This document shows positions 44,404-60,855 of a stretch of DNA of 64,000 nucleotides, in pieces (the stretch's first letter is position 1; each line of letters starts with the position of its first letter). The stretch lies in the NCBI GenBank assembly GCA_947495125.1, contig CANLXL010000001.1, forward strand, positions 806,001 through 870,000. Direction: 5' to 3'. The position numbers and the translations under genes are program-made. The DNA is from an uncultured Flaviramulus sp. (GTDB lineage: Bacteria > Bacteroidota > Bacteroidia > Flavobacteriales > Flavobacteriaceae). The notes under the pieces were generated by a model. It worked only from the letters and a program-made list of their open reading frames with translations. It was not told the origin of the DNA and searched no databases.

Positions 44404-46392
44404 CTAATTGGTATTTATCCATACCGCCATTTCGCCTACTTTACGATGCGCCCAAGCATAATATGGGATAGCAGTAAATGTTGTGCTTTTAGAATTTTTT
44501 GTTGCCGTGCCTTTAATTTTTCCTAAGCCTCCAAAAAGATCATTATCAAACGAATAATTAAAGACATCGTTTGTATTTACTTTTAGATTAAGTATGCCAT
44601 TAGGGTTATCAATTTCTTCGGCACAATACACTAAAGGGCCACGTTCAAAAGCAACTTTGTTTTTATTAGCTTCTACTTTTTCGTGCGTAATCACTTTACG
44701 AACAGCCATATCAAACTCAATTTGTATGTGGTCTCCTTTTTTCCAAGTATTTTGTTCTAATACTATATATCCATTTTTAGCAATAGCCTCTTGTTTAACT
44801 CCGTTAACAGATAAGGTATAGCCTAGTTGCTTTTTAGTAACATAACTATAAAGGTTTCCTGGCATGACTTCATCTCGTAACCAACCAGGTATACGAATGT
44901 TTAAGTGCGCTGGAACTGGTTCATTATTATTGATAGTAAGCGCTACTTTTCCATCCCACGGATAGTTGGTTTTTTGTTCAATTTCGAGCAGTTTTCCATT
45001 AACATCAAATGCCGATTCATTCCCAATAAACAGATTTACATATACATCTTCTCCTAGGGTAGCGTAAATATATCCTGGTAAAGATGGAAGTATGCGCACC
45101 ACATTTACAGGACAGCAAGAACAATCAAACCATGGTGAGCGACCACAAACACCTTGATTGAATTTATAAACACCATCTGCTTCTAAAGGGTTTGGATAAA
45201 AAAAGGTATTACCTTCAAACGATACCCCTGAAAGGAATCCATTATAAAGTGTTCGTTCAAATACATCCATGTATTTTACATCGCCCTGTAGTAAAAACAG
45301 CCGATGATTCCATAACATTAATGAAATGGCCGCACAAGTTTCGGTATAGGCTGTCGCATTTGGCAATTCGTAATCGGGCCCAAAACCTTCATGTTTTGGT
45401 TCTGCGCCTATGCCACCCGTTAGGTATATTTTCCTTTCAATAATATTTTTCCAAATTTTATCCAGTGCTTTATCATATTCTTTTGTGCCGGTAATGGCTG
45501 CAATATCTGTAGCTCCAGCATAAAAATAACCTGCTCTTACTGAATGCCCAACAGCTTTTTCTTGTTCAGAAAATGGTTTATGGTCTTGTGAATATTTACC
45601 ATATAGCTCATGTCCTTCAGCATTTCCTCTTTGGTCTACAAAAAATTTAGCGAGATTCAAGTATTTTTCATTTCCTGTAACTCTATACAGTTTCACCAAG
45701 CCTATTTCTATTTCTTGATGCCCTGGAACACCCATATTTTTTCCTGGACCAAAAACACTATCAATAAGATCTGCATTTTTAATAGCAACGTCTAAAAGGG
45801 TACGTTTTCCTGTTGCTTGAAAATGTGCTACGGCTGCTTCATACATGTGACCTACGTTGTATAGCTCATGGTGTATTCTTAGGCTTGTCCATCTTTTTTC
45901 TCCGCCTTTATCTGCTGCTTTATTTGGGTCGATTGTGCGGTTGGTATATAAATACCCATCTTCTTCTTGTGCAGCGACTATTTTAATAATAAGATTATCC
46001 AAGTATGCCCTAAGTTTTGGGTCTGGGTTAACTTGTAGTGAAAAACTGGCGCCTTCAATAATCTTGAATACATCAGAATCATTGAAATAGATGCCTTCAA
46101 ATTCGCCTTTCTCTAAACCTCCTGCTATAGCAAAATTTCGAAGCCTTCCTGTTTCTTCACTTTTCTGGAACGTATAAGGTACCGTTACGTCTCTATTGGT
46201 TTGCATACGTGGTTGCCAAAAATTGTCCTGTATGTTTACCTGAGTAAAAGGGACAGGCGTAATGGAATAATCATTTTTTATGGATTGAGCATGTAAACTC
46301 ATACTTATGAATGAAAAACTCATCAAATAAAAGAATATTCTTGCCGTTACTTGTGGCTTCAATTTCAATTTGTTTGTAGTTGTAGTTTTCAT
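44404..46392 (-). CDS. Glycoside hydrolase family 127, beta-L-arabinofuranosidase
   Basis: A 662-aa secreted enzyme with a signal segment at about 18-36 (IFFYLMSFSFISMSLHAQ). The predicted zinc and catalytic set of GH127 is complete. Glu335 in KHEGFG could be the acid/base. Glu351 and Cys353 lie in TETCAA. Cys426 and Cys427 in FDCSCCPVN match the catalytic cysteine and its neighbour. Residues about 510-650 form a C-terminal beta-sandwich. The family removes beta-L-arabinofuranose from plant or algal glycans. It points to an L-Araf-containing substrate for PUL 2. A decayed relative lies at 37.4-37.8 kb. Confidence 0.9.
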   Translation of the reverse strand: MKTTTTNKLKLKPQVTARIFFYLMSFSFISMSLHAQSIKNDYSITPVPFTQVNIQDNFWQPRMQTNRDVTVPYTFQKSEETGRLRNFAIAGGLEKGEFEGIYFNDSDVFKIIEGASFSLQVNPDPKLRAYLDNLIIKIVAAQEEDGYLYTNRTIDPNKAADKGGEKRWTSLRIHHELYNVGHMYEAAVAHFQATGKRTLLDVAIKNADLIDSVFGPGKNMGVPGHQEIEIGLVKLYRVTGNEKYLNLAKFFVDQRGNAEGHELYGKYSQDHKPFSEQEKAVGHSVRAGYFYAGATDIAAITGTKEYDKALDKIWKNIIERKIYLTGGIGAEPKHEGFGPDYELPNATAYTETCAAISLMLWNHRLFLLQGDVKYMDVFERTLYNGFLSGVSFEGNTFFYPNPLEADGVYKFNQGVCGRSPWFDCSCCPVNVVRILPSLPGYIYATLGEDVYVNLFIGNESAFDVNGKLLEIEQKTNYPWDGKVALTINNNEPVPAHLNIRIPGWLRDEVMPGNLYSYVTKKQLGYTLSVNGVKQEAIAKNGYIVLEQNTWKKGDHIQIEFDMAVRKVITHEKVEANKNKVAFERGPLVYCAEEIDNPNGILNLKVNTNDVFNYSFDNDLFGGLGKIKGTATKNSKSTTFTAIPYYAWAHRKVGEMAVWINTN

Positions 46393-46452: not shown

Positions 46453-46938
46453 TTATACGCTATGTAAGTACTCCTTAATTAGATTTTTATCTTTGGCTTT
46501 TAACTTATCATTCACTCTTTTTGAACTTTTTGCTGGCCAAATCACTATTAATGCACTTATAATGATTAAATTTTTCATAATGTATTGACCTATTAATGTA
46601 AGTGTTGCAGGGTTTTTACCAAAAACTATGTCTGAAATCAGAAACAATGGTGTAAACGTGCCTAGCATATGCAATAATGTTAACACAATAACTATTCTTA
46701 ATTTAAAATTAAGTATCAATAAGAGTCCTATTACTGTTTCCCAAAAAGCTAATACGCAATATGATATTGAACTTGGTACTAAATAAAATGTCAATAAATT
46801 AATGGTGTCTTTAGCTAATTCTTCAGCCGGACTTATATGCGGAAAAAATTTGAGTGTACCAAACCATAAATAAATTAAGCCGATACTTATGCGTAATAAG
46901 CATAGTTTGTTAAAATGCTTTATAGATCTATTTTTCAT
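46453..46938 (-). CDS. DoxX-family membrane protein
   Basis: A 161-aa protein with four membrane helices (LLRISIGLIYLWFGTLKFFP, ISYCVLAFWETVIGLLLILN, IVIVLTLLHMLGTFTPLFLI, NLIIISALIVIWPAK). The WFGTLKFFPHISPAEELA stretch after the first helix is typical of DoxX-like proteins. The role is uncertain; family members act in redox or quinone-linked membrane functions. It lies between the FG-GAP proteins and the GH127 gene on the same strand and is probably part of the PUL 2 train. Confidence 0.75.
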   Translation of the reverse strand: MKNRSIKHFNKLCLLRISIGLIYLWFGTLKFFPHISPAEELAKDTINLLTFYLVPSSISYCVLAFWETVIGLLLILNFKLRIVIVLTLLHMLGTFTPLFLISDIVFGKNPATLTLIGQYIMKNLIIISALIVIWPAKSSKRVNDKLKAKDKNLIKEYLHSV

Positions 46939-47101: not shown

Positions 47102-50100
47102 TTAATTTTCATACGAAAAAAGCTGAAGGCCTTCATTATTTCGGCTAACTAACAGCAACTTTTTATCTCCAGTTGATTTAAGTACTTTAATATCTCTAAC
47201 TTCGCCATTAATAGCAAATCCAGAAATTCTTGGTTCCATAATTTGCCAACCACCTTTATCATTCTTTTTTATAAAATGTCCAAAGGAGGCATCACATTTT
47301 CCGATATTGATTTGATTGTTATAAAAATTACCTGCTGCCAATATATCTTCTGTTCCGTCTTGATCAAAATCAGCTGTAGCAAAACCATATAAAGGTGCCA
47401 TCTGTAGTTCTAAAGGCAATGTATTTTCTGCAAAGTTTCCTTGTCCTTTATTTTCAAAATATACTGATTCAAAAGTGAACGCCTGTAAGCGTCCGGCACC
47501 TTGAAGTGCTTCTTTAGGAAAAACTTCTGAAAAACTACTGACAGCATAGCTTTTATAGGTTCTATATATTTTTTTTAGAGCTACAAGTTGATTCGCCAGC
47601 TCATCAAGTCCATAATATGGATATTCTACTCCATCTTTATAATAACTTAAAATCGGGTCTAAGCTTTCATTGTTATCAAAATCCTTTAAATATAAATTTA
47701 CTGGATATTTTTTTGAAGCTTTAAGATTAGTATTGATTCCTGCATTACCTAACAACAAGTCTTTGTCTCCGTCTCCATCTATATCAGAAGCATGAATGGT
47801 ATTCCACCAACCCGATGTATATTCGAGCTTTTTTTCTGTTAAAGGAATATTTTTAAAGTCTAGTATAGTTACAGGCATCCACTCACCAACAACAACCAAT
47901 TCTCTACTTTTCTCTAACCAAACAGCATCTGTTACCATACCTAGATTAACATTATTTCCAAATATTTTGGCTGTTAAATCATAGAGTTCCCCATTCCCTC
48001 TACCCAATAATATTTTACTTCTATGATGTTTTCCGTAAGAACCAGGTATTGAACGTGCCCCTACGAATACATCGATATTACCATCTTGATTAAAATCTGC
48101 CGATACAACACAAGATCCATTAAAGCTTAATTGTGGATGCTTATTAGATTTTGAATAATTCCCTTCTCCATCATTAATATATAATCTATCTGCTAAAGCC
48201 AAATTATCAAACGGTTCACCACCACCACTTACGACGTATAAATCTAAATCGTTATCCCGATCTATATCTAAAAAAACAGCTCCTATGTCTTCAGCTATTC
48301 TATCATTAAAAAAGACTTTAGATTCTGATTTTTCGAAAAGAGTGGTTTTATCTTTTTGTTGTAGATATAGCTCTCCCGATTGATTTTTTGCTCCTCCAAC
48401 ATAAAAATCATCTAGACCGTCACCATTTACATCTCCTACTGCCATTTTAGGCCCTTCACTAGATAACATTCGAGGTATTAGTTTTTCATATTCAAAATCG
48501 ACAAAATTATTCTCTTCATGTACAAAGCTTATACCACTTCTTTTATCAATATTTTTAAATATTTTTTTTCTTTCTATCTCATTAGACTTTGAAACAACAG
48601 ATTGTGCATTTTTATATTGCAACAACAGGGTTTGATTGTTCGATATGTTTTTTAATATCTGTTCCTTACCATCATGCCATCGTACGCTTAATTTATCTAC
48701 TTTACTTATACTATCTAAACCAAATATTACTGTTGGTTCGGTAGTTGAAACCCATCCTTTAACAGGATATAATTCTTGAATTTGTATGCCCTTTGCTGTT
48801 TCAATAGTAACCCTAGCACCTATGCCATAAGTATTTTTATCAGCACCTTTAAATTTTATTTTCAAATAGCCATTACTGCCGTTTTTATCGAAAACTGTAT
48901 TTTTATAAATGGAGGCAGAGGTATTTAAGTTATTTACCACTAAATCTAAGTCACCATCATTATCCAAATCGCCATAAGCAGCACCATTAGAGCTTCCATA
49001 TAAATCTAATCCCCACGCTTTGGTGTAGTTCTCAAACTTAGTCCCATTGTTTCTATAAGCTATATTAGCTACTTCTCCTTCTGGTATAGAAGCTATGTGT
49101 GTTTTAAAATCGAGGGTTCCTTTTTTATCTTGCTCATCAAACTCGTAATTAATATAATCTAAATCATTGGGTCTGTGCGGAATTCCATTAGATATAAAAA
49201 GGTCTTTATTACCATCGAGATCAAAATCTGCAAAGAGTGCTCCCCAGCTCCAATCTGTAGCAGATATACCGGTATATTCACCAACTTCACTAAATTGCAC
49301 CATGTTGTTGCCAAATAAATCTCCCTGATTGAGTTGTAACATATTTCTTGGATACTGAAAATGGTAGGAGTGATTTATTTTGAATTGATAAATACTATAC
49401 GATTCTACACCCATTAAGGTTTTCAATACTTTTTCTTCATGTGGGCGCATATCTAGAGTAATAACATCTAACCAGCCATCATTATTTATATCTGCTATGT
49501 CATTACCCATAGAGAACGTAGAGGTATGCCCCATAGATTCAGCAATAGCTTCTTTAAAAGTCCCGTCCTTTTGGTTATAGTATAAATAGTCGTTTTCATG
49601 AAAATCGTTGGATACATAAATATCTGGATATCCATCATTATTTATATCTGCCACATTTAGAGCCAATCCATAGCCATTAGAACCACCATAAATACCAGCT
49701 TCTTCACTAACATCTACAAACTTATCGTCAATATTTTTATATAAGCGGTCTCCTGCTAAACTATCTCTTTCTTTTCTGATTTTTCCTGGCCTGTAAGAAT
49801 TGGGGGTATGTACAGCTTGATTAAGTAAATACATATCTAAATCACCATCGGCATCATAATCAAAAAAAGCAGCTTGGTGTGAGTAGGTGCCAATATCTAA
49901 TCCATATTTATTTGCTTGTTCTGTAAATGTTCCATCGGTATTATTTACATACAATTTATTGATGCCTTTTTGGTTTTTATATCCATGCATCATACAGACA
50001 TAAATATCCAACCAGCCATCATGATTTATATCTACCATGGTTGTTCCTGTTGTCCAACTGGAAAGTCCAGTATCTCCTTTTACACCAGCGGTATCTGTAA

Positions 50101-50413
50101 TATCTTCAAATTGTAAATTCCCTTTATTAAGATATAGTTTATTAGACTCTTGATTCGCGGTAAAATAAATATCTGATAAGCCATCATTATTTATGTCGCC
50201 AATAGCAACACCACCACCCATATACATGTTGTTATATGATAAGATGCTGAATTTTTCACTCTCCTCAATAGTATTGGCAAAGTCGATCATGGTTGTTTTA
50301 GAAGACAATAATTCAAACAATGTCTCTTTATCGGAGTTTTCATTGCAACCCCATAAAATTAGCACTATCCCAAGTACTAAAATTTTATCTATTGTCTTGT
50401 TTATTTGCATCAT
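47102..50413 (-). CDS. Giant FG-GAP/ASPIC-UnbV lipoprotein 1
   Basis: A 1103-aa lipoprotein (lipobox LILWGCNENS). Many VCBS/FG-GAP repeats carry calcium-binding loops of the type DINNDGLSDIYF, DINHDGWLDIYV, DLDNDGDLDLVV. An ASPIC/UnbV-type domain is in the middle at about 520-600 (GIGARVTIETAKGIQIQELY ... VIFGLDSISKVDKLSVRWHD). A second repeat block follows to the C-terminus. The fold is probably two beta-propellers at the cell surface. These proteins accompany SusCD genes in marine Bacteroidota and may bind or position glycans or peptides. The next paralogue (50417-53785) ends 3 bp before its start. Confidence 0.85.
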   Translation of the reverse strand: MMQINKTIDKILVLGIVLILWGCNENSDKETLFELLSSKTTMIDFANTIEESEKFSILSYNNMYMGGGVAIGDINNDGLSDIYFTANQESNKLYLNKGNLQFEDITDTAGVKGDTGLSSWTTGTTMVDINHDGWLDIYVCMMHGYKNQKGINKLYVNNTDGTFTEQANKYGLDIGTYSHQAAFFDYDADGDLDMYLLNQAVHTPNSYRPGKIRKERDSLAGDRLYKNIDDKFVDVSEEAGIYGGSNGYGLALNVADINNDGYPDIYVSNDFHENDYLYYNQKDGTFKEAIAESMGHTSTFSMGNDIADINNDGWLDVITLDMRPHEEKVLKTLMGVESYSIYQFKINHSYHFQYPRNMLQLNQGDLFGNNMVQFSEVGEYTGISATDWSWGALFADFDLDGNKDLFISNGIPHRPNDLDYINYEFDEQDKKGTLDFKTHIASIPEGEVANIAYRNNGTKFENYTKAWGLDLYGSSNGAAYGDLDNDGDLDLVVNNLNTSASIYKNTVFDKNGSNGYLKIKFKGADKNTYGIGARVTIETAKGIQIQELYPVKGWVSTTEPTVIFGLDSISKVDKLSVRWHDGKEQILKNISNNQTLLLQYKNAQSVVSKSNEIERKKIFKNIDKRSGISFVHEENNFVDFEYEKLIPRMLSSEGPKMAVGDVNGDGLDDFYVGGAKNQSGELYLQQKDKTTLFEKSESKVFFNDRIAEDIGAVFLDIDRDNDLDLYVVSGGGEPFDNLALADRLYINDGEGNYSKSNKHPQLSFNGSCVVSADFNQDGNIDVFVGARSIPGSYGKHHRSKILLGRGNGELYDLTAKIFGNNVNLGMVTDAVWLEKSRELVVVGEWMPVTILDFKNIPLTEKKLEYTSGWWNTIHASDIDGDGDKDLLLGNAGINTNLKASKKYPVNLYLKDFDNNESLDPILSYYKDGVEYPYYGLDELANQLVALKKIYRTYKSYAVSSFSEVFPKEALQGAGRLQAFTFESVYFENKGQGNFAENTLPLELQMAPLYGFATADFDQDGTEDILAAGNFYNNQINIGKCDASFGHFIKKNDKGGWQIMEPRISGFAINGEVRDIKVLKSTGDKKLLLVSRNNEGLQLFSYEN

Positions 50414-50416
50414 ACC

Positions 50417-53400
50417 TTATCTGTATTTAAAAAATTGCGCAGGGGCATTGTTCTTAATAACTATTAGAATGTTTTGTCCATCAATTTCTGTGAGCTCAAA
50501 ATCTCTAATTTCTCCTTCCAATATCAAACCGCTTTCTTGTGGTGACACGGCTTTGAACGTACCATTTATATTACCTTTTAAGTACTGCCCGTAACTTGCA
50601 TCATACCGTCCTGCTTCGGGTTTTACGCTATGCAAATTACCTCCCAATAGAATATCATTGTATCCATCTTTGTCGATATCCTTGATTGAAATTGCATAAA
50701 TAGGAGATAGCTGTGCTTCTTGTGGCAATGGTTTTATTTTAAAAGTACTATCTCCGTTATTTAATAGAATAACACTCTCCAACATGGTAACCTCGTGGAT
50801 AACCGAACCTTGTAATTCTTCCTCCGTAAAGACCTCTTGAATAGATTGTCCTTTATATGCTTCATATTTTAAGTATTTTTTCTTTAAATGTGGTAGTTGC
50901 ATCACCAAATCATGACGAAGTACTTGTGGGTATGAGATACCATCATTATATACACAGATAAGTTGTTCTACTGTTCCGTTTTGGTCAAAATCGTTAATAT
51001 AACACGAAATCGGTTCTTCTTTACTGGCCTTAAATCTTGAATTTAGACCATGATTTCCAGCAACGTAATCTACATCACCATCACCATCTACATCTGCAGC
51101 TTTTAAACTATTCCACCAACCAGTAGTTTCTAATAAACCGGCAGTTTCAGTGACTTCGACCAGAGTTCCTCCTTGATTATTGAATAATTTTATCGACATC
51201 CATTCACCTAAAATCATTAAATCTTCATCACCATCGTTATCGTAATCGCTCCATACGGCATCAGTAATCATCCCTACATCTTTCAATTGCAGAGCAACAG
51301 TACTCGTTATATTTTTAAAAATACCTTTACCATCATTCTCAAGAATGTAGCCATTTTGCGGCACACCGAAAAGTCCTGGTCGCAAACGCACACCTACAAA
51401 AAGGTCTTGGTCACCATCAGCATCAAAATCACTCGCCGCGACTATAGAACTGCTTTCTGGTTTACCTACTGGTAATATTTGATTTGACCTCGAATAGTTC
51501 CCTTTACCATCATTAATATAAAGCCTATCAACCAATGCGAAAGAATTTACGGAAAATTCAGTACCTCCACTGGCTACGTATAAATCTAAATCTTTATCCC
51601 CATCTACATCTACAAAAATAGAATGAGTATCCTCACTTTCTTTATCTTTTTCAAAAACGATTACATTAGTGTTCTTATATTTTCCAGAAGGCGTCTGTAT
51701 AAATAGCTTGCCTGCCGAACCTTTAGCACCACCTACATAAAAATCGTTCAAGCCATCATTGTTTATATCTGCAGTCGTTATTTTTGGACCTTCGGTGGAT
51801 TTCATATGATACAATAAGCGGTCTCTATCAAAATCTACGAAGGTGTTTTCAACATGCTTAAAATCGAATCCTACTTCTCCTGTAACGTCTTTAAAAATCG
51901 TATTTACAGAATCAGAATCATCAGTTATTTTTAATCCTTGTTGACCAGTTGCATCAGCTTCCTTTAAAACCAAGGTTTGATCTACTTTTACTTGAGTCAT
52001 TAAGGTTTGCTTTCCGTAATACCAATCTACAAGTAAAGTATCTATTTCTTTAATGCTTCCCAACCCGAAGTTAAGCCTATTGTCTACTGAAGATTGGAAT
52101 CCGCGATTAGGAGACTGCTCTAAATAAAACGTTTTTCCGCCTACTTTTAGCGTCACTTTTGTGCCAACGGCAGATTTATTTTTATCAGCTCCTCTCAGAT
52201 CTATTTTGAGATAATGATTTTTATCTACTAACTTATCACTTTGATTACGATATACAAAAGGAGGCATATTTGCATTGTTTACAATCAAATCTAAATCGCC
52301 GTCATTGTCTAAATCGCCATAAGCAGCTCCATTAGAATGACTTGGTTTAGCTAAACCCCATGCTGCTGTTTTATTGCTAAACTGCAATGCTTTGTTTCCT
52401 GCAAAGGCATAATTCGGAATACGATTAACAGGTATGATATCTATAAGTTGCTTATAATCTACACCATCGTCTTTAACCACCATACGTGTCACTTCATCGT
52501 TTGCGACATAGTTTAAATAATCTTGATTTAAAATATCTTGAGCTAGTCCATTGGCTATATATAGATCTTTATAGCCATCATTATCCAAATCTGTAATTAA
52601 AGCACTCCAACTCCAGTCTGTTGCTTCTACTCCAGCCAATCTACCTACTTCACTAAAAGCAACCCCCTTTTCAGGTAAAACACCATTATTTTTGTGTAGC
52701 ATATTTCGGGTAAACTGATGGTAATATCCATTTTTTACACTGTATTGATATTTATCCCAACTTTCGAAAGTCATTGTGGTTTTAAACCGCTCGTCTCCTT
52801 CAGGAAGCATTTCTGATACAAATATTTCAGGGTAACCATCACCATTCAAATCTGCAATATCGGCCCCCATAGAAGCCACACTTATAGAACGCATTTGCTT
52901 TTCTAATTCTTCTCTAAAAGTTCCATCGCCATTATTCATATAGATATAATCGCGTTCAAAAAAATCGTTACAAACGTATAAATCCATCCAGCCGTCCTTA
53001 TCTATATCGGCAACAGAAACCCCTAAACCAAAACCTATTTCACTTCCATATATTCCTGCTTGTTCACTAACATCTGTAAATTTGCCATTATCATTGCGCA
53101 ACAACTTATCGCCACCAGATTCGTCCCTTATTGGACGTTGATTTTTACGAAGGTTAAAGCTTCCTATAGAACGGTAAGAGTTATTTAATAAGTATACGTC
53201 TAAATCTCCATCTTTATCATAATCAAAAAAGGTAGCATGTGTAGAAAAACCAGCATCGGCTAGTCCCATTTCTTCAGCCTTTTCGGTAAAAGTGCCATTG
53301 CCATTATTGATAAAAAATTCATTTTGTTTATTATCTCCTTCAATATCTCCAGAGTTGCATACATAAATATCTAACCAACCATCGGCATTAACATCAACCA

Positions 53401-53785
53401 TCGAGACTCCTGTAGACCAAGCTCGTGACCCTCCTACTTTTGCAGTGTCAGTAATATCTTCAAAAGTAAAATTGCCTTTATTAATATATAATCTATTGGG
53501 TAATAAGTTTGCTGTAAAATAGATATCTAATAAACCATCATTATTTATGTCTCCTAAACCAACACCTCCTCCATTATAATAATTTCGATATTTATATATA
53601 TTAAAATCGTTGGTATAGATAAGTGTATTTTCAAAATCAATATTTGTTTGCTTTGCGCTTAAAGATTCAAACAATGGTTTATCTATAGTGTCTTGCTTAT
53701 TACATGATATAATAAACATAACGGTTAAAAGAAGTCCAAAAAATTGAACTTTTATCATATTATAACATTTGTGGTTCATTTTCAT
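50417..53785 (-). CDS. Giant FG-GAP/ASPIC-UnbV lipoprotein 2
   Basis: A 1122-aa paralogue of the proteins encoded at 47102 and 55720. The signal segment ends at a Cys in MFIISCNKQD. The same order of FG-GAP repeats, ASPIC/UnbV domain (FQSSVDNRLNFGLGSIKEID) and second repeat block is seen. The start abuts the stop of the haloperoxidase-like gene with no gap, so translation is likely coupled. Calcium-loop signatures such as DVDADGDVDYV and DIDKDGYNDILL recur about every 50-70 residues. Confidence 0.85.
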   Translation of the reverse strand: MKMNHKCYNMIKVQFFGLLLTVMFIISCNKQDTIDKPLFESLSAKQTNIDFENTLIYTNDFNIYKYRNYYNGGGVGLGDINNDGLLDIYFTANLLPNRLYINKGNFTFEDITDTAKVGGSRAWSTGVSMVDVNADGWLDIYVCNSGDIEGDNKQNEFFINNGNGTFTEKAEEMGLADAGFSTHATFFDYDKDGDLDVYLLNNSYRSIGSFNLRKNQRPIRDESGGDKLLRNDNGKFTDVSEQAGIYGSEIGFGLGVSVADIDKDGWMDLYVCNDFFERDYIYMNNGDGTFREELEKQMRSISVASMGADIADLNGDGYPEIFVSEMLPEGDERFKTTMTFESWDKYQYSVKNGYYHQFTRNMLHKNNGVLPEKGVAFSEVGRLAGVEATDWSWSALITDLDNDGYKDLYIANGLAQDILNQDYLNYVANDEVTRMVVKDDGVDYKQLIDIIPVNRIPNYAFAGNKALQFSNKTAAWGLAKPSHSNGAAYGDLDNDGDLDLIVNNANMPPFVYRNQSDKLVDKNHYLKIDLRGADKNKSAVGTKVTLKVGGKTFYLEQSPNRGFQSSVDNRLNFGLGSIKEIDTLLVDWYYGKQTLMTQVKVDQTLVLKEADATGQQGLKITDDSDSVNTIFKDVTGEVGFDFKHVENTFVDFDRDRLLYHMKSTEGPKITTADINNDGLNDFYVGGAKGSAGKLFIQTPSGKYKNTNVIVFEKDKESEDTHSIFVDVDGDKDLDLYVASGGTEFSVNSFALVDRLYINDGKGNYSRSNQILPVGKPESSSIVAASDFDADGDQDLFVGVRLRPGLFGVPQNGYILENDGKGIFKNITSTVALQLKDVGMITDAVWSDYDNDGDEDLMILGEWMSIKLFNNQGGTLVEVTETAGLLETTGWWNSLKAADVDGDGDVDYVAGNHGLNSRFKASKEEPISCYINDFDQNGTVEQLICVYNDGISYPQVLRHDLVMQLPHLKKKYLKYEAYKGQSIQEVFTEEELQGSVIHEVTMLESVILLNNGDSTFKIKPLPQEAQLSPIYAISIKDIDKDGYNDILLGGNLHSVKPEAGRYDASYGQYLKGNINGTFKAVSPQESGLILEGEIRDFELTEIDGQNILIVIKNNAPAQFFKYR

Positions 53786-55132
53786 TTATTCCTTTGCAAT
53801 ACGTGTTTGCAAATTATTTACTATATGTTTTCCTACTTGCTCCCCTTGGGTTACCCCATTATCTATGGCCATCATATAGTGAATTCCGCCGTATAATCTA
53901 CTAATAGCCGCTTCTTCAGAAGCTTCCAGAAAACTCTCATAATCTCTTGAAGGTAAATCGAACTCTACCTCAACCGTATCTTTATAAGCAAAGCCTTCTC
54001 CATATATATCGGTAAGCGTTATGGCTGCGGCTCGTGAGACGACACTATGCCCACTTGTGTATTCTGGAAATGGTGGCGTTTGTAATAATGGTAACCAATC
54101 TTCATCTATATGTTCATTAATCAATGTTTCTGGACGCACCATTAAACTTCTCCACTTTTCATCCCAGCAACTAATAAAAGCATCAAAAAGTGTTATAGAT
54201 ACTTTAGCATGTGTTTCTATGGTTTCATCAAACGAGTTATTAGCTTTTCTAGATGCTATTGCTGCAATACCCATCCAATGTCCTCCTGGTGTAATTTTTT
54301 TGGTTGCAAACATAGCATGCCCTCTATGGTGTGACACATAAGGGTTACAATCCCAAAAACTAGCTATGGCTTTTTGCTCTTCGTTTAATTCATTTCCTAT
54401 ATCGTATACTTCTTTTAATTGGCGGTAAAACTCACTAGATTCGTTTAAGTCAAAATCAACAGGTGGTATAGGTGGATATTGTTGGGCTGAACTTAAAACC
54501 ATAGGTCTAATTTTCATCCAATGCGGTTCAATCCCTACCATATAATCGGGAGGTGTTGGTTTCCATAGTTTATCCTCATTAACAATCGTATATTTCGGAT
54601 AACTTCTGGTTTGTTTGTACATATCTTTATCTGCCCAATCTAAAATATGCTGAGCAACTTGATTTCCATAAGCCATAGAGTTATTAAAAACTTGTTTAGG
54701 TAATCCGTCATTTTTTAATTTTTTATAGAGTGATTGGGAATATGCTTCCATTTTTTCTTCGGAAAAAATTAACGCTTTACCAACCACAAGATATGCTTGA
54801 ATAGATGCTAAATGATAATTTATGTTTTCTTCAGAAGGTTTTGGAGTTCTTGATAGTCCATTTAATTGTCCAGAAAGCGACGCATACTTATTTGGATAGG
54901 CAGGCAACATAGCCTCGTAGGCTGCTATACTAGGGTAAGCATATACTCTACTCGCTACGGGAGGAGAAAAAATATCATAAACAATAACATCTGTTAACTG
55001 TTTAGTGGTTGTCAAATAGAGTTCAGGATTATTTAACTGTTTTTGATAGGCTGTATTTTCTTTACAGGCAGAAACTAAAAACAATAATATTACTAATCCT
55101 ATAAAAGTTAAATTATATTTCATTTTTATCAA
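53786..55132 (-). CDS. Vanadium-dependent haloperoxidase/PAP2-like lipoprotein
   Basis: A 448-aa lipoprotein (lipobox LFLVSACKEN). The three vanadate/phosphate-binding motifs are in order: KWRSLMVRPE at about 327-336, PEYTSGHSV at about 353-362, and SRLYGGIHYMMAIDNG at about 408-423. These match the K-RP, PSGH-type and SR-H motifs of vanadium haloperoxidases and PAP2 acid phosphatases. Either halide oxidation or phosphatase activity is possible. The gene overlaps the upstream 218-aa gene by 20 bp and abuts the downstream FG-GAP gene, so it is a fixed part of this operon. Confidence 0.8.
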   Translation of the reverse strand: MIKMKYNLTFIGLVILLFLVSACKENTAYQKQLNNPELYLTTTKQLTDVIVYDIFSPPVASRVYAYPSIAAYEAMLPAYPNKYASLSGQLNGLSRTPKPSEENINYHLASIQAYLVVGKALIFSEEKMEAYSQSLYKKLKNDGLPKQVFNNSMAYGNQVAQHILDWADKDMYKQTRSYPKYTIVNEDKLWKPTPPDYMVGIEPHWMKIRPMVLSSAQQYPPIPPVDFDLNESSEFYRQLKEVYDIGNELNEEQKAIASFWDCNPYVSHHRGHAMFATKKITPGGHWMGIAAIASRKANNSFDETIETHAKVSITLFDAFISCWDEKWRSLMVRPETLINEHIDEDWLPLLQTPPFPEYTSGHSVVSRAAAITLTDIYGEGFAYKDTVEVEFDLPSRDYESFLEASEEAAISRLYGGIHYMMAIDNGVTQGEQVGKHIVNNLQTRIAKE

Positions 55133-55769
55133 TAGGTTTTAAGTCTTCAAATAGTATGTTTAATTCTTGCTCCGAATAGGTAGGTTGCAATAATATTTTT
55201 CGATTTCCATCAATTTTAATATATTTATATTTAACCCATATGTCTTCGTCATTAGGAATCGTAAAAAACTTATTTCCACCATACCCTTTTTCAAAAAAAT
55301 CAATGGTTTCCATAAGTAAATTTTCCATAGACATATCTTTATTATAATGAGAATACGCTTTGTATCTAATGATAGCTTTGAACTTACTTATTGGCATTAA
55401 TTTATTATTGATATCGGAAGAAGGAAAAAATTCAAATACCGTAGGGTAGCTAAACTTATTTTTAAATTCACAGGTAACTGCATTACCACTTGTATTAGGT
55501 TTGAATAAACCGTCAGCATTCCTAGCCCAACAATAATAATAAAAATCTTCATAAGTCATCCCTAAATGTATGCCATAAATTATGCTATCCTTACGTACAT
55601 TCTTTTTCATCTCTTCTTTCACTACTTCATTATAGGACCTTTTGTGTCTACACGATAATACTAGAATTGATCCTAATACAACTATGAGAAGCATTCCGAT
55701 TATATGTCCCTTGTTATTTTTATTCTTTTTTAATAGCATATAACTTAATTTTTTCATTATTTCTAGCAA
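55113..55769 (-). CDS. Membrane-anchored hypothetical protein
   Basis: A 218-aa protein. An N-terminal membrane segment ends in a Cys (GMLLIVVLGSILVLSCRHKR) that could be a lipobox. The rest is soluble with mixed charge (SIIYGIHLGMTYEDFYYYCW). No family was recognised. It overlaps the upstream FG-GAP gene by 50 bp and the downstream haloperoxidase-like gene by 20 bp, both in the same direction. The start could also be the Met at 55757. Because it is locked into the operon it probably acts with its two neighbours at the cell envelope. Confidence 0.6.
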   Translation of the reverse strand: MLEIMKKLSYMLLKKNKNNKGHIIGMLLIVVLGSILVLSCRHKRSYNEVVKEEMKKNVRKDSIIYGIHLGMTYEDFYYYCWARNADGLFKPNTSGNAVTCEFKNKFSYPTVFEFFPSSDINNKLMPISKFKAIIRYKAYSHYNKDMSMENLLMETIDFFEKGYGGNKFFTIPNDEDIWVKYKYIKIDGNRKILLQPTYSEQELNILFEDLKPIDKNEI

Positions 55770-58700
55770 TGATTAAATGCTCTTCACCTTTTATATTAAT
55801 TTTTTTTATATCGCGTATTTCCCCTTTAATATGAAAACCAGATTCTGAAAAATTTACCGTTTGCAAGTTTCTTTTCTTTAATGACTTAAAAACAGCACCA
55901 TAACTTCCTGCATAGATACCTGTTTGTGGTTTGGCTTTATATTGATTCCCTCCTAATATAATATCCATTCGCTCATCATGATTAAGATCTTTCGCGTAAA
56001 TTGCATAAATTGGAGCCAATTGACCTTCTAATGGCAATTCTTCAGACACGAAACGTTCTCCCTCATTCCAAAATATCATAGATTTGTTTGTATATGCTTC
56101 ATGCACAATAGCATTTTCTAATTCACCGTCAGAAAAAATGTCTTGAATTGTTTGTTCTTTATAATCTGAATGTTTTAAGTACTTTTTAAGCAAATAGGGC
56201 ATTTGTGATGTTATTTCTTTTTTTTGTGCAACTGGATAGGCTTTTTCACCTCTATAGGTAGTTATTACCTGCTCAACAGAACCATTTTTATCAAAATCAT
56301 TCACATACATTCGCACCGGCTTTTCAGAACTTGCCCTAAATAAAGTATTTTGACCAAGATTTCCAGCTATAAGATCCTCATAACCATCTCCATCTATGTC
56401 TGCTTTTTCTAATGTATTCCAAAAACCATTTGATCCTTTTAAACCAATTTGATTTGTAATCTCTTTAAATTTACCTCTAGTATTAGAAAACACCCTTATA
56501 GGCATCCATTCCCCAGCTACAATCAAATCCATATCTCCATCAATATCAAAATCCATCCAAACGGCATCTGTTACCATACCAATATTTGATAACTCAATAG
56601 CTCTTTCTTTGGTAACATTCTTAAAATTCCCTTTGCCATCATTCTCCAATAAATAACTGGAAGTTGGAATACCGTAAGCAGAAGACACCAACCTACCTCC
56701 AAAAAATAAATCTTGATCGCCATCTAGATCAAAGTCTGCATCAATAACCACTGAAGTACTTAAAGGTTTTCCTGTAGGAAGTAATTGCTGTGATTTTTTA
56801 AAATTTCCTTCACCATCATTAATATACAAACGATCTATAAGTGCAAAAGAACTGTCCGAAAACTCAGAACCACCACTACTTACTAATAAATCTAAATCAT
56901 TATCATTATCAGCATCAAAAAGTAATATTCCTAAATCTTCTGAAAGCCTGTCTTTTTCAAAAATCGTTGTCTCTTTTGGCAAAAATCCATTTTCATACTG
57001 CAAGTAGAGAACTCCTGCAATATCTTTGGCTCCACCAATAAAAAAATCGTCCTTTCCATCACCATTTACATCTCCAACAGCTACTTTAGGTCCTTCGTTT
57101 GATATCATATGATATAATAACTTTTCCCTATCAAAATCCACAAAATTACTTTCTGTATGATAATGTTCAATACCCAAACGGGCTGTAACATCTATTAAAA
57201 AAGGCGTTGCTTTGTCTATATTGATTGAATTTTCTTTTTTTAAAGTTTCATCATGTTGCTGATATAGTAAAAATTGATCAGTAGCAACATTATTACTTGT
57301 TTGTTTGGCTCCATTAGGCCAAACGATTTCCAGTGTATCTATGTTCGTTGCTTTTCCTATTCCAAAAAACAAACGATCATCCACAGCTGACATTACTCCA
57401 CGCATGGGAAACAGTTCTTGATAGTACTTTTTACCTTTAATAGTAAGTGTAACTTGTGCCCCTATAGCGGTTGCTCCATTTTTATTTTTAATATTTATAT
57501 TTATAAAATGGTTATCTTGATGATCAGTATCATTTTTATAGATGAATGGAGGGGCATTTATATTGTTAATTACCAGGTCTAAATCTCCATCGTTGTCAAT
57601 ATCTCCATAGGCGGATCCACTAGAAAAACCTGGCTGATCCAATCCCCATTCGGTGGCGACATTCTTAAATTGCAAATTTCCTTTATGAGTAAACATATGA
57701 TTTGATAATGGTATGGAAGGAATGTTATCGATAAGTTCTTTAATTACCGCACCTTTTTTTCTTAGAATTCTCCTAATTTTTGCTGGGTCTTTATAAAAAT
57801 CTATATGATCTTGATCTAAAAGATCTTTTGCAATACCGTTGGTCACAAATATTTCGTTGTTACCATCAAGATTAAAATCTACTAATTGTACACCCCAGCT
57901 CCAATCTGTTGCTTCTACACCTGAATATCTAGATATTTCGCTAAAAGCTATCTCTTTCTCTTTTCCAACCCTTCCAGTATTCATCTGAAACACATTTCTA
58001 GGAAATTGTCTGTGATACCCATTTCTTTCTTTAAGTACATATTTATCCCAATCATCAAATACTGTTTTGGTTTTAAGGCGTCCTTCATCAGATGGAAGCA
58101 TCTCTGTTACAAAAATTTCTGGATATCCATCATGATTCATATCAGCTATATCTACCCCCATAGAACCTAAACTAAGTTCTTCAATAACGGTATCTATCGA
58201 CTCTGTAAAGGTTCCGTCTTGGTTATTTAAGTATAAATAATCTTTCTCAAAAAAATCGTTAGCTACATAAATATCTGTCCAACCATCTTTATTAACATCG
58301 GCCACCGAAATCCCCAAACCAAAACCTATGGAACTACTATAAATACCCGCTTCTTGACTCACATTAATAAAAAAACCTTCATCATTTCGGTATAATTTAT
58401 CACCACCTCCTATATCTTGTCTTTCACGCAAACCCTTTCTTACGTCTATAACTATTTCTGAAGGGCTAATAGAATTGTTAGAGAGGTACATATCCAAATC
58501 GCCATCATTATCGTAATCAAAAAAGAGAGCATGCACAGAAAAACCTAAATCATTGATACCATATTCTGCCGCTGATTCCTTAAAAACAGGAATCCCATCA
58601 GGATTTAACCCTGTATTGATAAATAATTCATTTCTGCGATTTTTGTCTTTAGGATTGCCGCTTTTACAAACATAAATATCTAACCAACCATCTTGATTAA

Positions 58701-59088
58701 TATCAACAACACTTACTCCTGTACTCCATGCATTAGTACTGGCAACACCAGCACTTTTAGTGATATCTTTAAAATGAAAATTCCCGTCACCCAAGTAAAG
58801 TGCATTATTAACCTGATTGCCGCAAAAAAAAAGATCTAGCAAGCCATCATTGTTGAAATCTGCCAAGCCAGTACCTGCACCGTTATAAAAACCACGATAT
58901 AGGTACGTATTGAATTCTTCGGTATATACTAATGTGTTTTCAAAATAAACACCCACATCTTTAGCATCCAAAGACTTAAAAACAACATCTGAGTTATTTG
59001 TTATTTTATCGCCACAAGAAATTAAATATGATATATAACAAATAATACCACTATAAAAAAAAATCTTTATACGTTTAAATTTAGTCAT
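55720..59088 (-). CDS. Giant FG-GAP/ASPIC-UnbV lipoprotein 3
   Basis: A 1122-aa lipoprotein (signal ending ISYLISCGDKI), the first of three paralogues in transcription order. FG-GAP loops include DFNNDGLLDLFF, DINQDGWLDIYV and DIDNDGDLDLVI. The ASPIC/UnbV domain is at about 540-620 (GVMSAVDDRLFFGIGKATNI), with a second propeller block to the C-terminus. It ends overlapping the 218-aa gene. It starts 131 bp after SusD, across a stem-loop that could lower its expression relative to SusCD. Confidence 0.85.
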   Translation of the reverse strand: MTKFKRIKIFFYSGIICYISYLISCGDKITNNSDVVFKSLDAKDVGVYFENTLVYTEEFNTYLYRGFYNGAGTGLADFNNDGLLDLFFCGNQVNNALYLGDGNFHFKDITKSAGVASTNAWSTGVSVVDINQDGWLDIYVCKSGNPKDKNRRNELFINTGLNPDGIPVFKESAAEYGINDLGFSVHALFFDYDNDGDLDMYLSNNSISPSEIVIDVRKGLRERQDIGGGDKLYRNDEGFFINVSQEAGIYSSSIGFGLGISVADVNKDGWTDIYVANDFFEKDYLYLNNQDGTFTESIDTVIEELSLGSMGVDIADMNHDGYPEIFVTEMLPSDEGRLKTKTVFDDWDKYVLKERNGYHRQFPRNVFQMNTGRVGKEKEIAFSEISRYSGVEATDWSWGVQLVDFNLDGNNEIFVTNGIAKDLLDQDHIDFYKDPAKIRRILRKKGAVIKELIDNIPSIPLSNHMFTHKGNLQFKNVATEWGLDQPGFSSGSAYGDIDNDGDLDLVINNINAPPFIYKNDTDHQDNHFININIKNKNGATAIGAQVTLTIKGKKYYQELFPMRGVMSAVDDRLFFGIGKATNIDTLEIVWPNGAKQTSNNVATDQFLLYQQHDETLKKENSINIDKATPFLIDVTARLGIEHYHTESNFVDFDREKLLYHMISNEGPKVAVGDVNGDGKDDFFIGGAKDIAGVLYLQYENGFLPKETTIFEKDRLSEDLGILLFDADNDNDLDLLVSSGGSEFSDSSFALIDRLYINDGEGNFKKSQQLLPTGKPLSTSVVIDADFDLDGDQDLFFGGRLVSSAYGIPTSSYLLENDGKGNFKNVTKERAIELSNIGMVTDAVWMDFDIDGDMDLIVAGEWMPIRVFSNTRGKFKEITNQIGLKGSNGFWNTLEKADIDGDGYEDLIAGNLGQNTLFRASSEKPVRMYVNDFDKNGSVEQVITTYRGEKAYPVAQKKEITSQMPYLLKKYLKHSDYKEQTIQDIFSDGELENAIVHEAYTNKSMIFWNEGERFVSEELPLEGQLAPIYAIYAKDLNHDERMDIILGGNQYKAKPQTGIYAGSYGAVFKSLKKRNLQTVNFSESGFHIKGEIRDIKKINIKGEEHLIIARNNEKIKLYAIKKE

Positions 59089-59151
59089 TTAATAATACCT
59101 AATTTTTAATCTACATCTAATTCTAAAGTTACAAAATTCTATAAAGATCAA

Positions 59152-59185
59152 AATTCCGGAAAGTAATAAGTACCACCTTCCGGAA
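59152..59185 (-). terminator. Stem-loop between susD and the FG-GAP operon
   Basis: ATTCCGGAA (59152-59160) pairs perfectly with TTCCGGAAT (59177-59185). On the minus strand the stem is followed by TTTTGATC, a weak T-run. It lies 35 bp after the susD stop. A leaky terminator or mRNA-processing site that keeps SusCD mRNA in excess is a reasonable reading. Confidence 0.5.
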
Positions 59186-59219
59186 TAATAACACTAAAAC
59201 TCAAAACAAACTCAAAAAA

Positions 59220-60845
59220 TTAATATCCTGGATTTTGTTGTAAACTTGGATTAGCTTGCAAAGCACCAGTTGGTATTGGATAATATCTACGAAATTCTTC
59301 ATTAAAATTAACTGATGGTTGACCTTTTTGATTTCCAATTCCTTTTAAAAACCAATCATCTTCCCAATGCCCAAATCGAATAGTAGTGGCTCGACCATGA
59401 TTTTCCAAGGCTAATTCCTTTTTAATTTCCCAATATAAATCATCTTCTGTCAGAGCTCCCAAAGCATCAAGACCTGCTCTTGCTCTAGTCATATTAACTA
59501 AAGCTAATGCTTCTGTACTACCATTATCTAATCTCCATAATGCCTCAGCTCTCATTAATAAAACTCCAGCATATCGGTAAATTGGAAAATCATTACTTAT
59601 ATCCCCTGTTTCATTTAGAGCTAACTCAAATTTTGCATACCTCGCTCCATGCCTATAGGGATAACGATTATCAATTTCATTATAATCAGTAGTAATAAAT
59701 ATATTACAACCACCAACTAATTGGTCTTCAAACCCACCAGATAAATAATTATCAAAATCCTCTACACAGTCTGTTAATTCAAAAGCCGGGTCAGGGTTAG
59801 CATAACCAAATCCGTTATCATTTGTCCAATTAGGACCAGCTTCAATAGTATATTGTTGACCGGTTAAAAACATACCTTTACGCTTATCTTCATCTTCAAA
59901 AGCATTATAAAAATCCTCTTGTATAGCAAAACCTCCCCAAGGTGTATCACTCATACCAAAAGTAGCATCTGCAGATTGATGTAAGGCTGTATGTCTCACA
60001 TTAAACCCATTTAAAAATCCTCTTTCGTAAGGAATTACAAAAATATTTTCGGAAGAACTTTCATTTTGTGTTCTAAAGTTAGCAAAATATCCCCCTTCTA
60101 AACTGTAAGCTCCACTATTAATGACCATATTGGCAGCATCAGCTGCTTCTTGCCATTTAGGTATTCCTGTAATACGCTCAGAATTCAAGTATAAATTTGC
60201 TAAAATGGTATAGCCAACCCATTTATTTACTTTTCCATAGGTAAAACTACTTCTTTCTTCTGATAATCCATCTATAGAAGCTAATAATTCAGCTTCAAGG
60301 ATATTCCAGGCTTCCTGAGGTGATACTTGTGGCGGTGCTGGATCAGCGTCAGCAAAACGTAATTCTACTGGAATATTACCATAATAGCTAAGCGCTAAAT
60401 AAATATAATGTGCTCGTAATGCTCGCAATTCTAATACTGCCGGAGAATCTGCTCCTGCTTGTTCCGTAAAGATTTCTATCAAACGATTACATACAGATGT
60501 TCCTTCAGCACTTAAACTCCATACATTATTTGAATAGAATTCACTTGGTTGAAAATCGTGGGACATTAAGCGTGGCCATAAACCTCCATCATCCCAACCA
60601 TTGTTAGAACGTACAGCAACGGTTGCTATATCTGTTACAACATCTGATACAGGATGTACTCTATCCTGTGTTCTTCTTAATGGTAAATATGCTGCTGAAG
60701 CTGCTGATGCAAACTGTTCAGGGCTTTTAAAAAATTCTTCAGGAATTATTTCAGAATATATTTCTGGTTCTACATCGCATGATTGATATGCAAAAGACCC
60801 AAAAATTAAAGTCAAAATAAATAATTTGTTTTTTATTTTCATCAT
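59220..60845 (-). CDS. SusD/RagB-family lipoprotein (PUL 2)
   Basis: A 541-aa SusD protein starting at Met 60845 (MMKIKNKLF); the frame is open to 60869, overlapping susC, but the signal peptide supports the shorter start. The lipobox is AYQSCDVEPE. SusD features are the helix LRALRAHYIYLALSYYGNIP, the segment GVLLMRAEALWRLDNGSTEA and a C-terminal YYPIPTGALQANPSLQQNPG. It binds glycan at the surface as lid of the SusC encoded 10 bp upstream. Confidence 0.92.
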   Translation of the reverse strand: MMKIKNKLFILTLIFGSFAYQSCDVEPEIYSEIIPEEFFKSPEQFASAASAAYLPLRRTQDRVHPVSDVVTDIATVAVRSNNGWDDGGLWPRLMSHDFQPSEFYSNNVWSLSAEGTSVCNRLIEIFTEQAGADSPAVLELRALRAHYIYLALSYYGNIPVELRFADADPAPPQVSPQEAWNILEAELLASIDGLSEERSSFTYGKVNKWVGYTILANLYLNSERITGIPKWQEAADAANMVINSGAYSLEGGYFANFRTQNESSSENIFVIPYERGFLNGFNVRHTALHQSADATFGMSDTPWGGFAIQEDFYNAFEDEDKRKGMFLTGQQYTIEAGPNWTNDNGFGYANPDPAFELTDCVEDFDNYLSGGFEDQLVGGCNIFITTDYNEIDNRYPYRHGARYAKFELALNETGDISNDFPIYRYAGVLLMRAEALWRLDNGSTEALALVNMTRARAGLDALGALTEDDLYWEIKKELALENHGRATTIRFGHWEDDWFLKGIGNQKGQPSVNFNEEFRRYYPIPTGALQANPSLQQNPGY

Positions 60846-60855
60846 AACAATAGTT

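Follow-up and report, generated by a model that had tools for sequence, protein, structure and literature searches.

The SusC/SusD operon on the - strand of the window (the whole stretch of DNA analysed, 64,000 nucleotides) is interpreted, with about even confidence and from sequence alone, as a SusCD-type locus for sugar uptake at the cell surface that includes a vanadium-dependent haloperoxidase (VHPO) as a built-in part. The encoded lipoproteins would surround the SusC/SusD importer on the outside of the cell, with the large FG-GAP/ASPIC (FG) proteins and their calcium-type propellers as capture and scaffold parts. More tentatively, the VHPO may make hypohalous acid from H2O2 and halide at the uptake site, iodide being the likeliest halide because of the kinship with a Zobellia enzyme, and might thereby remove peroxide and/or oxidise sugar-carrying material before capture by the FG proteins and SusD, after which the sugar would be imported in a TonB-driven step. 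Among the genes of the window operon, no source of H2O2 was recognised.

Conserved membership of the VHPO in a SusCD operon would give bacterial enzymes of unsettled role a concrete, testable setting and connect sugar uptake with halogen chemistry in marine Bacteroidota. For the large FG-GAP/ASPIC lipoproteins, their fixed, position-specific types in this operon offer a first clue. No account of the combination of SusCD, FG-GAP/ASPIC and haloperoxidase was found in open-licence PubMed Central full text, where haloperoxidase co-occurs with the word-start 'aspic' or with VCBS in one to two occurrences each. The operon is likewise not described in the accessible parts of PMC5064120, PMC11871015, PMC9296495, PMC8490876, PMC12188728 and PMC13198595.

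Operon layout and predicted folds

According to the open reading frames of the window, the genes are arranged in the order SusC, SusD, FG, P, VHPO, FG, FG, all on the - strand. The SusC-like TonB-linked outer-membrane transporter (60856..63876, 1006 aa) scores 650.9 bits against TIGR04056 (cut-off 368.25) and the SusD-like protein (59220..60869, 549 aa) 81.6 bits against PF07980 (cut-off 23.1). After a gap of 131 bp follow the First-type FG-GAP/ASPIC lipoprotein (55720..59088, 1122 aa, 12 Dx[DN]x[DN]G motifs), the small lipoprotein P (55113..55769, 218 aa), the vanadium-haloperoxidase-type lipoprotein VHPO (53786..55132, 448 aa, lipobox Cys23), the Second-type FG-GAP/ASPIC lipoprotein (50417..53785, 1122 aa, 13 calcium-type motifs) and the Third-type FG-GAP/ASPIC lipoprotein (47102..50413, 1103 aa, 11 calcium-type motifs). 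FG-GAP_3 and UnbV_ASPIC (PF13517 and PF07593) score over cut-off in 3/3 large proteins. The initial annotation had described three ~1100-aa paralogues, a haloperoxidase-like protein and a 218-aa protein as tightly joined behind SusCD, and the four joints bear this out: FG and P overlap by 50 bp and P and VHPO by 20 bp (38 and 11 bp when the start is placed at the first in-frame ATG and not at TTG), VHPO and the following FG gene are separated by 0 bp, and the last two FG genes by 3 bp. All five proteins (three FG, P and VHPO) have a hydrophobic stretch at the N terminus that runs up to a Cys; the regular expression used for lipoboxes is crude, matching 125/199 VHPO, 121/172 FG and 23/29 P sequences and missing the window SusD.

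The next gene on the - strand encodes a DoxX-family membrane protein (46453..46938, 161 aa; PF07681 25.1 bits, cut-off 23.6) that shares 86% identity over 159 residues with its positional counterpart in the closest relative found (locus L154), and probably closes the conserved block. A GH127 beta-L-arabinofuranosidase family gene (44404..46392; PF07944 363.4 bits), a gene for a GH127-like protein (42180..44333; PF07944 99.6 bits) and a GH2-type glycosidase gene (40292..42175; beta-galactosidase/glucuronidase models, all below cut-offs), likewise on the - strand, probably belong to the same locus. This locus also carries an HTCS-type regulator and a sulfatase gene, besides the adjacent SusC and SusD.

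The AF2 model of the First-type FG protein (pLDDT 89.7, pTM 0.90) has murine CRTAC1 as its best solved match (9etn; Z 38.1, 464 aligned, rmsd 2.5; Foldseek E 1.2e-26 to 9etn_A), and its residues from about 625 to 1122 match propellers in the predicted structure. An assignment of the FG proteins to the integrins was rejected, since integrins are weak by sequence (E 7.4e-06 and worse) and CRTAC1 is far better (1.3e-25). P (AF2 model pLDDT 90.1) matches no family among Pfam and NCBIfam. Against solved structures, the profile search gave one row with E 0.97, Foldseek a best E of 0.042 and VIA-align a best Z of 6.6, within the range called common; no new fold is claimed.

The haloperoxidase-type protein

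The VHPO aligns with the Zobellia vanadium haloperoxidase 4CIT over residues 10-442 of 448 (E 1.1e-154) and keeps K326, R333, S360, G361, H362, R412 and H418, the seven vanadate-site residues. All seven are present in 185/204 aligned rows, and K326, R333, H362, R412 and H418 are invariant in every covering row among the 204, so that the vanadate-binding His/Arg set, whose loss the initial annotation had named as counter-evidence, is not lost. PAP2 phosphatases are characterised by a PSGH motif and a signature ending in SRxxxxxHxxxD. In the window VHPO, the terminal Asp (H418+4) is replaced by Ala and the Pro of PSGH by Thr (TSGH); among the strong-group rows, the Asp occurs in 2/184 covering sequences and the Pro in 22/186. 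Because this terminal Asp is missing, dephosphorylation looks less likely than peroxidation, as far as motifs can tell.

A surface phosphatase, in which the PAP2-fold protein would dephosphorylate sugar phosphates for import by SusCD, with any haloperoxidase activity a by-product of the site that both reactions use, is consistent with the site plan common to PAP2, with the sugar loci that surround VHPO genes and with the sole Pfam match, PAP2 (PF01569; E 2.6e-05, 24.4 bits, below the 27.2 cut-off, and 43.9 bits in a second VHPO of the same genome, C14). PF01569 is a superfamily model that also covers haloperoxidases. Given the Ala and Thr substitutions, the rarity of the Asp and Pro in the strong group, and the haloperoxidase name of the best solved relative, we regard the phosphatase as quite unlikely.

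The C14 protein scores 725 bits against 4cit, compared with 519 for the window VHPO; its gene is located directly behind one FG gene grouping with the Third set, and SusCD was not found at that locus. The same genome further encodes two FG-GAP/ASPIC and VHPO-domain fusions with an intact vanadate site, both with a tail domain for type IX secretion (above cut-off in one, just under in the other). The notion that this type of VHPO domain is generally fused was discarded: elsewhere it is mostly unfused, with 6/28 matches lying in open frames >1,000 aa, 2 of them from the own genome.

Co-inheritance and separation of the operon genes

VHPO loci were drawn from all 104 listed matches outside the own genome with E up to 9.6e-89 and from 16 weaker listed ones, other weaker matches being omitted; further loci were the best 80 of 588 confirmed stretches. 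All trees were built with FastTree only. The closest relative among the matches listed, L154 (78% in VHPO), has the same order C-D-F-P-V-F-F. Homologues of P occur in 29/203 loci and lie directly behind an FG gene in 29/29 (27 within the locus, 2 by added flank); 21/29 of these loci read FG-P-FG-FG-VHPO. In the window version, the VHPO gene seems to have changed its place within the operon while remaining part of it. Across the sampled relatives, the FG proteins group by their position in the operon, the First and Second types each forming one group with support 99, and nine long FG proteins of the own genome without a separate VHPO gene form another group. On this tree, the three FG proteins are distinct subunits of long standing. 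Because the order in L154 is identical and the FG proteins sort by position, the arrangement is more than chance. The survey of relatives' loci thus upholds, through the 29 loci with P homologues, the proposed coupling of the five genes by co-inheritance.

The coupling is incomplete with respect to VHPO and FG. No same-strand FG gene was found within 8 kb in 60/184 strong VHPO loci sampled, some of which end at contig ends, and the VHPO tree requires a minimum of 28 changes of the FG-neighbour label (3/202 rows left out as short or weak, 16/199 with too little upstream flank for scoring). The idea that VHPO and FG never separate is ruled out by these results. Free separation of neighbouring genes, which had been named as evidence against a single machine, was accordingly observed in part, in the FG-less loci and the label changes. 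SusC or SusD was found in the same-strand upstream run of 34/104, 3/16 and 12/80 VHPO loci, many of which end too soon; the SusD counts are rough because the profile seeds were picked by position behind SusC in the own genome. Ten of the 13 long FG proteins of the own genome stand third, behind SusC and a SusD-position gene, and 9/10 of these lack a separate VHPO gene; SusCD and FG therefore occur without the enzyme.

This pattern bears on the view that VHPO genes are mobile passengers within uptake loci that share no mechanism with FG or SusCD. The FG-less loci and the repeatedly changed neighbourhood are in its favour, whereas the 28 changes fall below every one of 500 shuffles (mean 47.6), the order changed inside the operon without loss, and ASPIC proteins are encoded in 71/71 genomes with a strong VHPO match, as opposed to 126/321 others. 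With VHPO matches of any strength, the figures are 86/90 and 111/302 genomes, and the four VHPO genomes without ASPIC have weak matches. Both comparisons hold among the matches listed (at most 4 candidates scored per genome), with shared ancestry uncorrected. We consider a passenger role improbable.

Sugar setting and comparison with known systems

In relatives, the neighbours of VHPO genes include kojibiose hydrolase, trehalase and sugar transporters (families defined as single-linkage clusters, one or two examples of each run against Pfam). Of the 23 kojibiose hydrolase genes in VHPO genomes, 14 have a strong VHPO gene within 1 kb, against 0.06 expected, and 12/39 full-length trehalase genes have one within 10 kb, against 0.35 expected; the expectations assume uniform placement, and a trehalase was counted among the 39 if its E was under 1e-100, to the exclusion of shorter or weaker matches. 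Judged from these neighbourhoods, the sugar link of the VHPO genes is real. Together with the HTCS-type regulator and the GH127/GH2-type genes adjoining the window cassette, it agrees with the setting in sugar use proposed at the outset. No kojibiose hydrolase over cut-off was found in the own genome, and the idea that kojibiose hydrolase accounts for the substrate of the window locus was therefore rejected.

Peroxide or halogen defence, or halogen metabolism, would leave the operon shared for timing only, with the VHPO removing H2O2, producing hypohalous acid against competitors or forming halogenated metabolites upon algal attack. One vanadium iodoperoxidase of Zobellia is reported to be upregulated on A. 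nodosum, a brown alga, and is discussed beside algal oxidative defence (PMC9296495), and Zobellia VHPOs are proposed to feed haloacetate recycling (PMC8490876). The DoxX protein bears a weak resemblance to RclC (16.2 bits, cut-off 275). Kojibiose hydrolase and trehalase, by contrast, are not defence genes, and the position-specific conservation of the operon and the FG-GAP/ASPIC fusions call for more than shared timing, which renders such a role unlikely. Iodine capture, in which the cassette would oxidise iodide and take up iodine species, can point to Arenibacter C-21, whose iodine uptake requires glucose, O2 and calcium, for which a pairing of glucose oxidase and haloperoxidase was proposed, and whose genome holds at least 5 4USZ homologues (PMC5064120), and to the 11-13 calcium-type motifs per FG protein. 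Since the recurrent identified neighbours are sugar genes, no halide transporter was seen among the families run and some relatives may, to judge by the names in record titles alone, come from reactors or freshwater, where iodide is scarce, we give it little credence.

Our preferred reading, sugar uptake with a built-in haloperoxidase, may tentatively be extended. It is conceivable, if less than probable, that the Zobellia-type 'iodoperoxidases' of Bacteroidota belong to a widespread machine for sugar uptake at the cell surface, built on SusCD together with dedicated CRTAC1-like propeller lipoproteins and one small lipoprotein, in which halide-dependent oxidation would be needed for trehalose/kojibiose-type alpha-glucosides (or glycerol conjugates) and, in the window version, for an arabinose- or galactose-type substrate. 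If so, sugar gain and not halogen defence would be the main role of these enzymes.

Surface glycan-binding proteins and endo-enzymes are usual directly behind SusCD. The window locus shares SusC, SusD, the adjacent HTCS-type regulator, glycosidases and a sulfatase with SusCD-type polysaccharide utilization loci of Bacteroidota, but that place is taken by three giant FG-GAP/ASPIC proteins together with a haloperoxidase and a small lipoprotein. FG-GAP repeats, an ASPIC domain and, as modelled for the First-type protein, a predicted CRTAC1-like fold are common to CRTAC1 and the FG proteins, which differ in being lipoproteins of bacteria, in having roughly double the length and in carrying a second propeller-like part behind ASPIC. 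The K-R-SGH-R-H site plan is shared with PAP2 phosphatases, although the window VHPO is without their terminal Asp and PSGH Pro. The Zobellia galactanivorans VHPO (PDB 4CIT/4USZ, 'group 2'), whose representative is described as an iodoperoxidase in a 2026 paper (PMC13198595), resembles the window VHPO in near full-length kinship, the seven site residues and a lipobox-like start. However, the C14 copy, not the window VHPO, is the closest kin of 4CIT in the own genome, and the window VHPO sits in a SusCD-FG-P operon, Zobellia having been compared at the protein level.

Operon architecture and the vanadate site

SusC, SusD, an FG-GAP/ASPIC lipoprotein (FG), the small lipoprotein P, a vanadium-haloperoxidase-type lipoprotein (VHPO) and two further FG proteins are encoded in a single run on the minus strand (47102-63876), and the locus is built like a SusCD sugar-uptake locus. 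The tight coupling of five genes behind SusCD proposed in the initial annotation was confirmed: the genes for the First FG (55720-59088), P (55113-55769), VHPO (53786-55132), Second FG (50417-53785) and Third FG (47102-50413) form a series in which the first two joints overlap, by 50 and 20 bp, and the last two leave 0 and 3 bp between genes. Downstream on the same strand lie a DoxX-family gene (46453-46938), two GH127-type genes and a GH2-type gene. The DoxX-family gene is kept behind the Third FG in L154, the nearest relative found (86% identical); its product resembles the reactive-chlorine protein RclC only very weakly. Just outside the window, a gene for an HTCS-type regulator (Reg_prop, Y_Y_Y, HisKA, HATPase, response regulator and AraC-type HTH domains) is divergent from SusC, followed by a sulfatase gene.

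VHPO (448 aa) is related over nearly its full length to the Zobellia galactanivorans vanadium haloperoxidase 4CIT (E 1.1e-154, 518.9 bits). The residues K326, R333, S360, G361, H362, R412 and H418 align with the seven vanadate-site positions. The vanadate-binding set, whose loss would have spoken against a haloperoxidase-like protein, is intact in the window, and all seven residues are likewise kept in 185 of 204 aligned rows. The remaining 19 rows comprise two truncated sequences and 17 altered only at the Ser or Gly of the SGH triplet. Cys replaces Ser in L083, L084, L087, L091, L093, L097 and L110, Ala replaces Gly in L047, L049, L113, L119, L124, L136 and L153, and Ala or Gly replaces Ser in L099, L130 and L137.

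The same genome encodes a second full-length VHPO (contig C14), which is nearer to 4CIT (725 bits) and lies 4 bp downstream of an FG gene grouping with the Third set. In addition, FG-GAP/ASPIC proteins of 1246 aa (L031:9652-13392, contig C7) and 1367 aa (L029:7432-11535, contig C1) are fused to a C-terminal VHPO domain that keeps the seven site residues in both; their type IX secretion tail domains score 32.0 and 25.4 bits, respectively (cut-off 27). The gene for the shorter fusion comes directly after a long FG gene, itself preceded by SusC and a SusD-position gene. Where the PAP2-phosphatase signature ends in Asp, the window VHPO has Ala422, and among the 184 strong-group rows that extend over this position only 2 have Asp; Asp is present in 9 of 16 weaker-group rows and in both fusions.

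FG subunit types and the small protein P

Besides the two VHPO fusions, the genome encodes 13 ASPIC proteins of some 1100 aa, which makes 15 in all. Ten of the 13 long FG genes are immediately downstream of SusC and a SusD-position gene; of the remaining three, two belong to the later part of the window operon, and for one (C14) SusCD is not in view. A FastTree phylogeny was built from 99 FG proteins; those at the First position (8 rows) and those at the Second (24 rows) each formed one group with a support of 99. The Third position (24 rows) required three changes, because the final FG of operons with two FG genes groups within it. A group of their own was formed by the nine long FG proteins encoded in this genome with no separate VHPO gene. 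The grouping by position across these sequences indicates that the three paralogues in the window have long been separate subunits and did not arise by recent tandem duplication.

The First-type FG was predicted with confidence (pLDDT 89.7, pTM 0.90), and its model best matched murine CRTAC1 (Foldseek E 1.2e-26; Z 38.1 across 464 residues). Residues 625-1121 form a second propeller-like part that aligned with the sugar-converting propeller enzyme aldos-2-ulose dehydratase at Z 28.6, little above many other propellers. A shorter FG-GAP protein (494-600 aa) immediately follows VHPO in the SusC-SusD-FG-VHPO operons of 11 loci (L098, L099, L100, L102, L104, L105, L106, L115, L142, L151 and L152).

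Homologues of P were found at 29 of 203 loci, in every case immediately downstream of an FG gene (27 within the locus; L038 and L044 via added flanks). P is followed directly by FG-FG-VHPO in 21 loci, and by an extra frame or a further FG before VHPO in four (L038, L044, L155 and L227). VHPO lies between P and the next FG in L154 and the window, and on the opposite strand from P in L170, L216 and L223. SusC and SusD are in view upstream of ten P loci (four within loci, six via added flanks); the remaining loci end before either could be seen. The model of P is confident (pLDDT 90.1), but no clear solved relative emerged from a profile search of solved structures, Foldseek or VIA-align.

Linkage of VHPO and FG genes across the phylum

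VHPO was matched at E 1e-8 in 90 of 392 sampled genomes of the phylum. Among the matches listed, 104 strong ones were fetched: 61 have FG as the next gene upstream on the same strand (gap at most 50 bp in 52; median 6), 80 have an FG on that strand within 5 kb, and in 34 the same-strand run upstream includes SusC or SusD. The corresponding counts are 7, 7 and 3 for the 16 weaker matches and 29, 41 and 12 for the named loci (the best 80 of 588), six of which have no upstream gene in view. ASPIC proteins occur in all 71 genomes with a strong VHPO match versus 126 of 321 without, and in 86 of 90 with a match of any strength versus 111 of 302, counts uncorrected for ancestry.

Free separation of the neighbours was found in part. 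No same-strand FG lies within 8 kb in 60 of the 184 strong loci, and the VHPO tree shows 28 changes of the FG label, both of which count against a locked VHPO-FG unit; these changes are many, but each of 500 shuffles gave more (mean 47.6). In ten loci (L043, L045, L046, L050, L052, L056, L059, L062, L063 and L064), a gene for a protein of about 300 aa begins 0-8 bp downstream of VHPO, the cluster example carrying a GyrI-like small-molecule-binding domain.

Sugar setting and possible working of the cassette

Genes on the same strand as one of the 184 strong VHPO genes, and no more than 7 kb from it, were clustered. Recurrent neighbours were GH65 proteins, sugar-type MFS transporters and GH37 trehalases (20 loci each), sodium:solute symporters (12), glycerol-kinase-type FGGY kinases (8), ROK kinases (7) and aquaporin-type channels (6). 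NCBIfam identifies the GH65 example as a kojibiose hydrolase (1209 bits, cut-off 800). As a control, both enzymes were searched for in 70 other genomes with strong VHPO matches. Kojibiose hydrolases over the cut-off lay within 1 kb of a strong VHPO in 14 of 23 cases (0.06 expected under uniform placement), and full-length trehalases within 10 kb in 12 of 39 (0.35 expected), none of the 39 being within 1 kb; five trehalase genes of the named set (best 80 of 588) are at most 28 bp from VHPO. No kojibiose hydrolase over the cut-off is encoded in the genome of the window itself, and there the cassette is accompanied by GH127/GH2-type genes; the sugars it serves may therefore differ from host to host. 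At L230 (11360-15708), the genes that follow the P-FG-FG-VHPO run encode a glycerol kinase, a protein of the glycerol-3-phosphate dehydrogenase/oxidase type (below all cut-offs) and an aquaporin-type channel, a set that hints at a substrate containing glycerol.

Composition, conservation, an intact vanadate site and a sugar setting are established for the cassette. We infer that its lipoproteins would sit on the cell surface around SusC/SusD, the calcium-type FG proteins serving for capture and as a scaffold; more tentatively, VHPO might turn halide and H2O2 into hypohalous acid at the uptake site. The halide used cannot be told from sequence, and the determinants of halide choice are called largely unknown in one study (PMC13198595). 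Iodine capture by the cassette is a lead, given that Arenibacter C-21, in which five or more homologues of the Zobellia enzyme are encoded, takes up iodine in dependence on glucose, O2 and calcium (PMC5064120). A role of VHPO in defence or halogen metabolism is another, suggested by the upregulation of a Zobellia iodoperoxidase on a brown alga (PMC9296495) and a proposed haloacetate cycle (PMC8490876). Our searches of open-licence PubMed Central yielded neither the fixed SusCD-FG-P-VHPO combination, nor the P family and position-specific FG types, nor the link of VHPO to kojibiose hydrolase and trehalase, all of which other literature may hold; taken singly, FG-GAP/ASPIC proteins, SusCD loci and the VHPO family of enzymes are already known.
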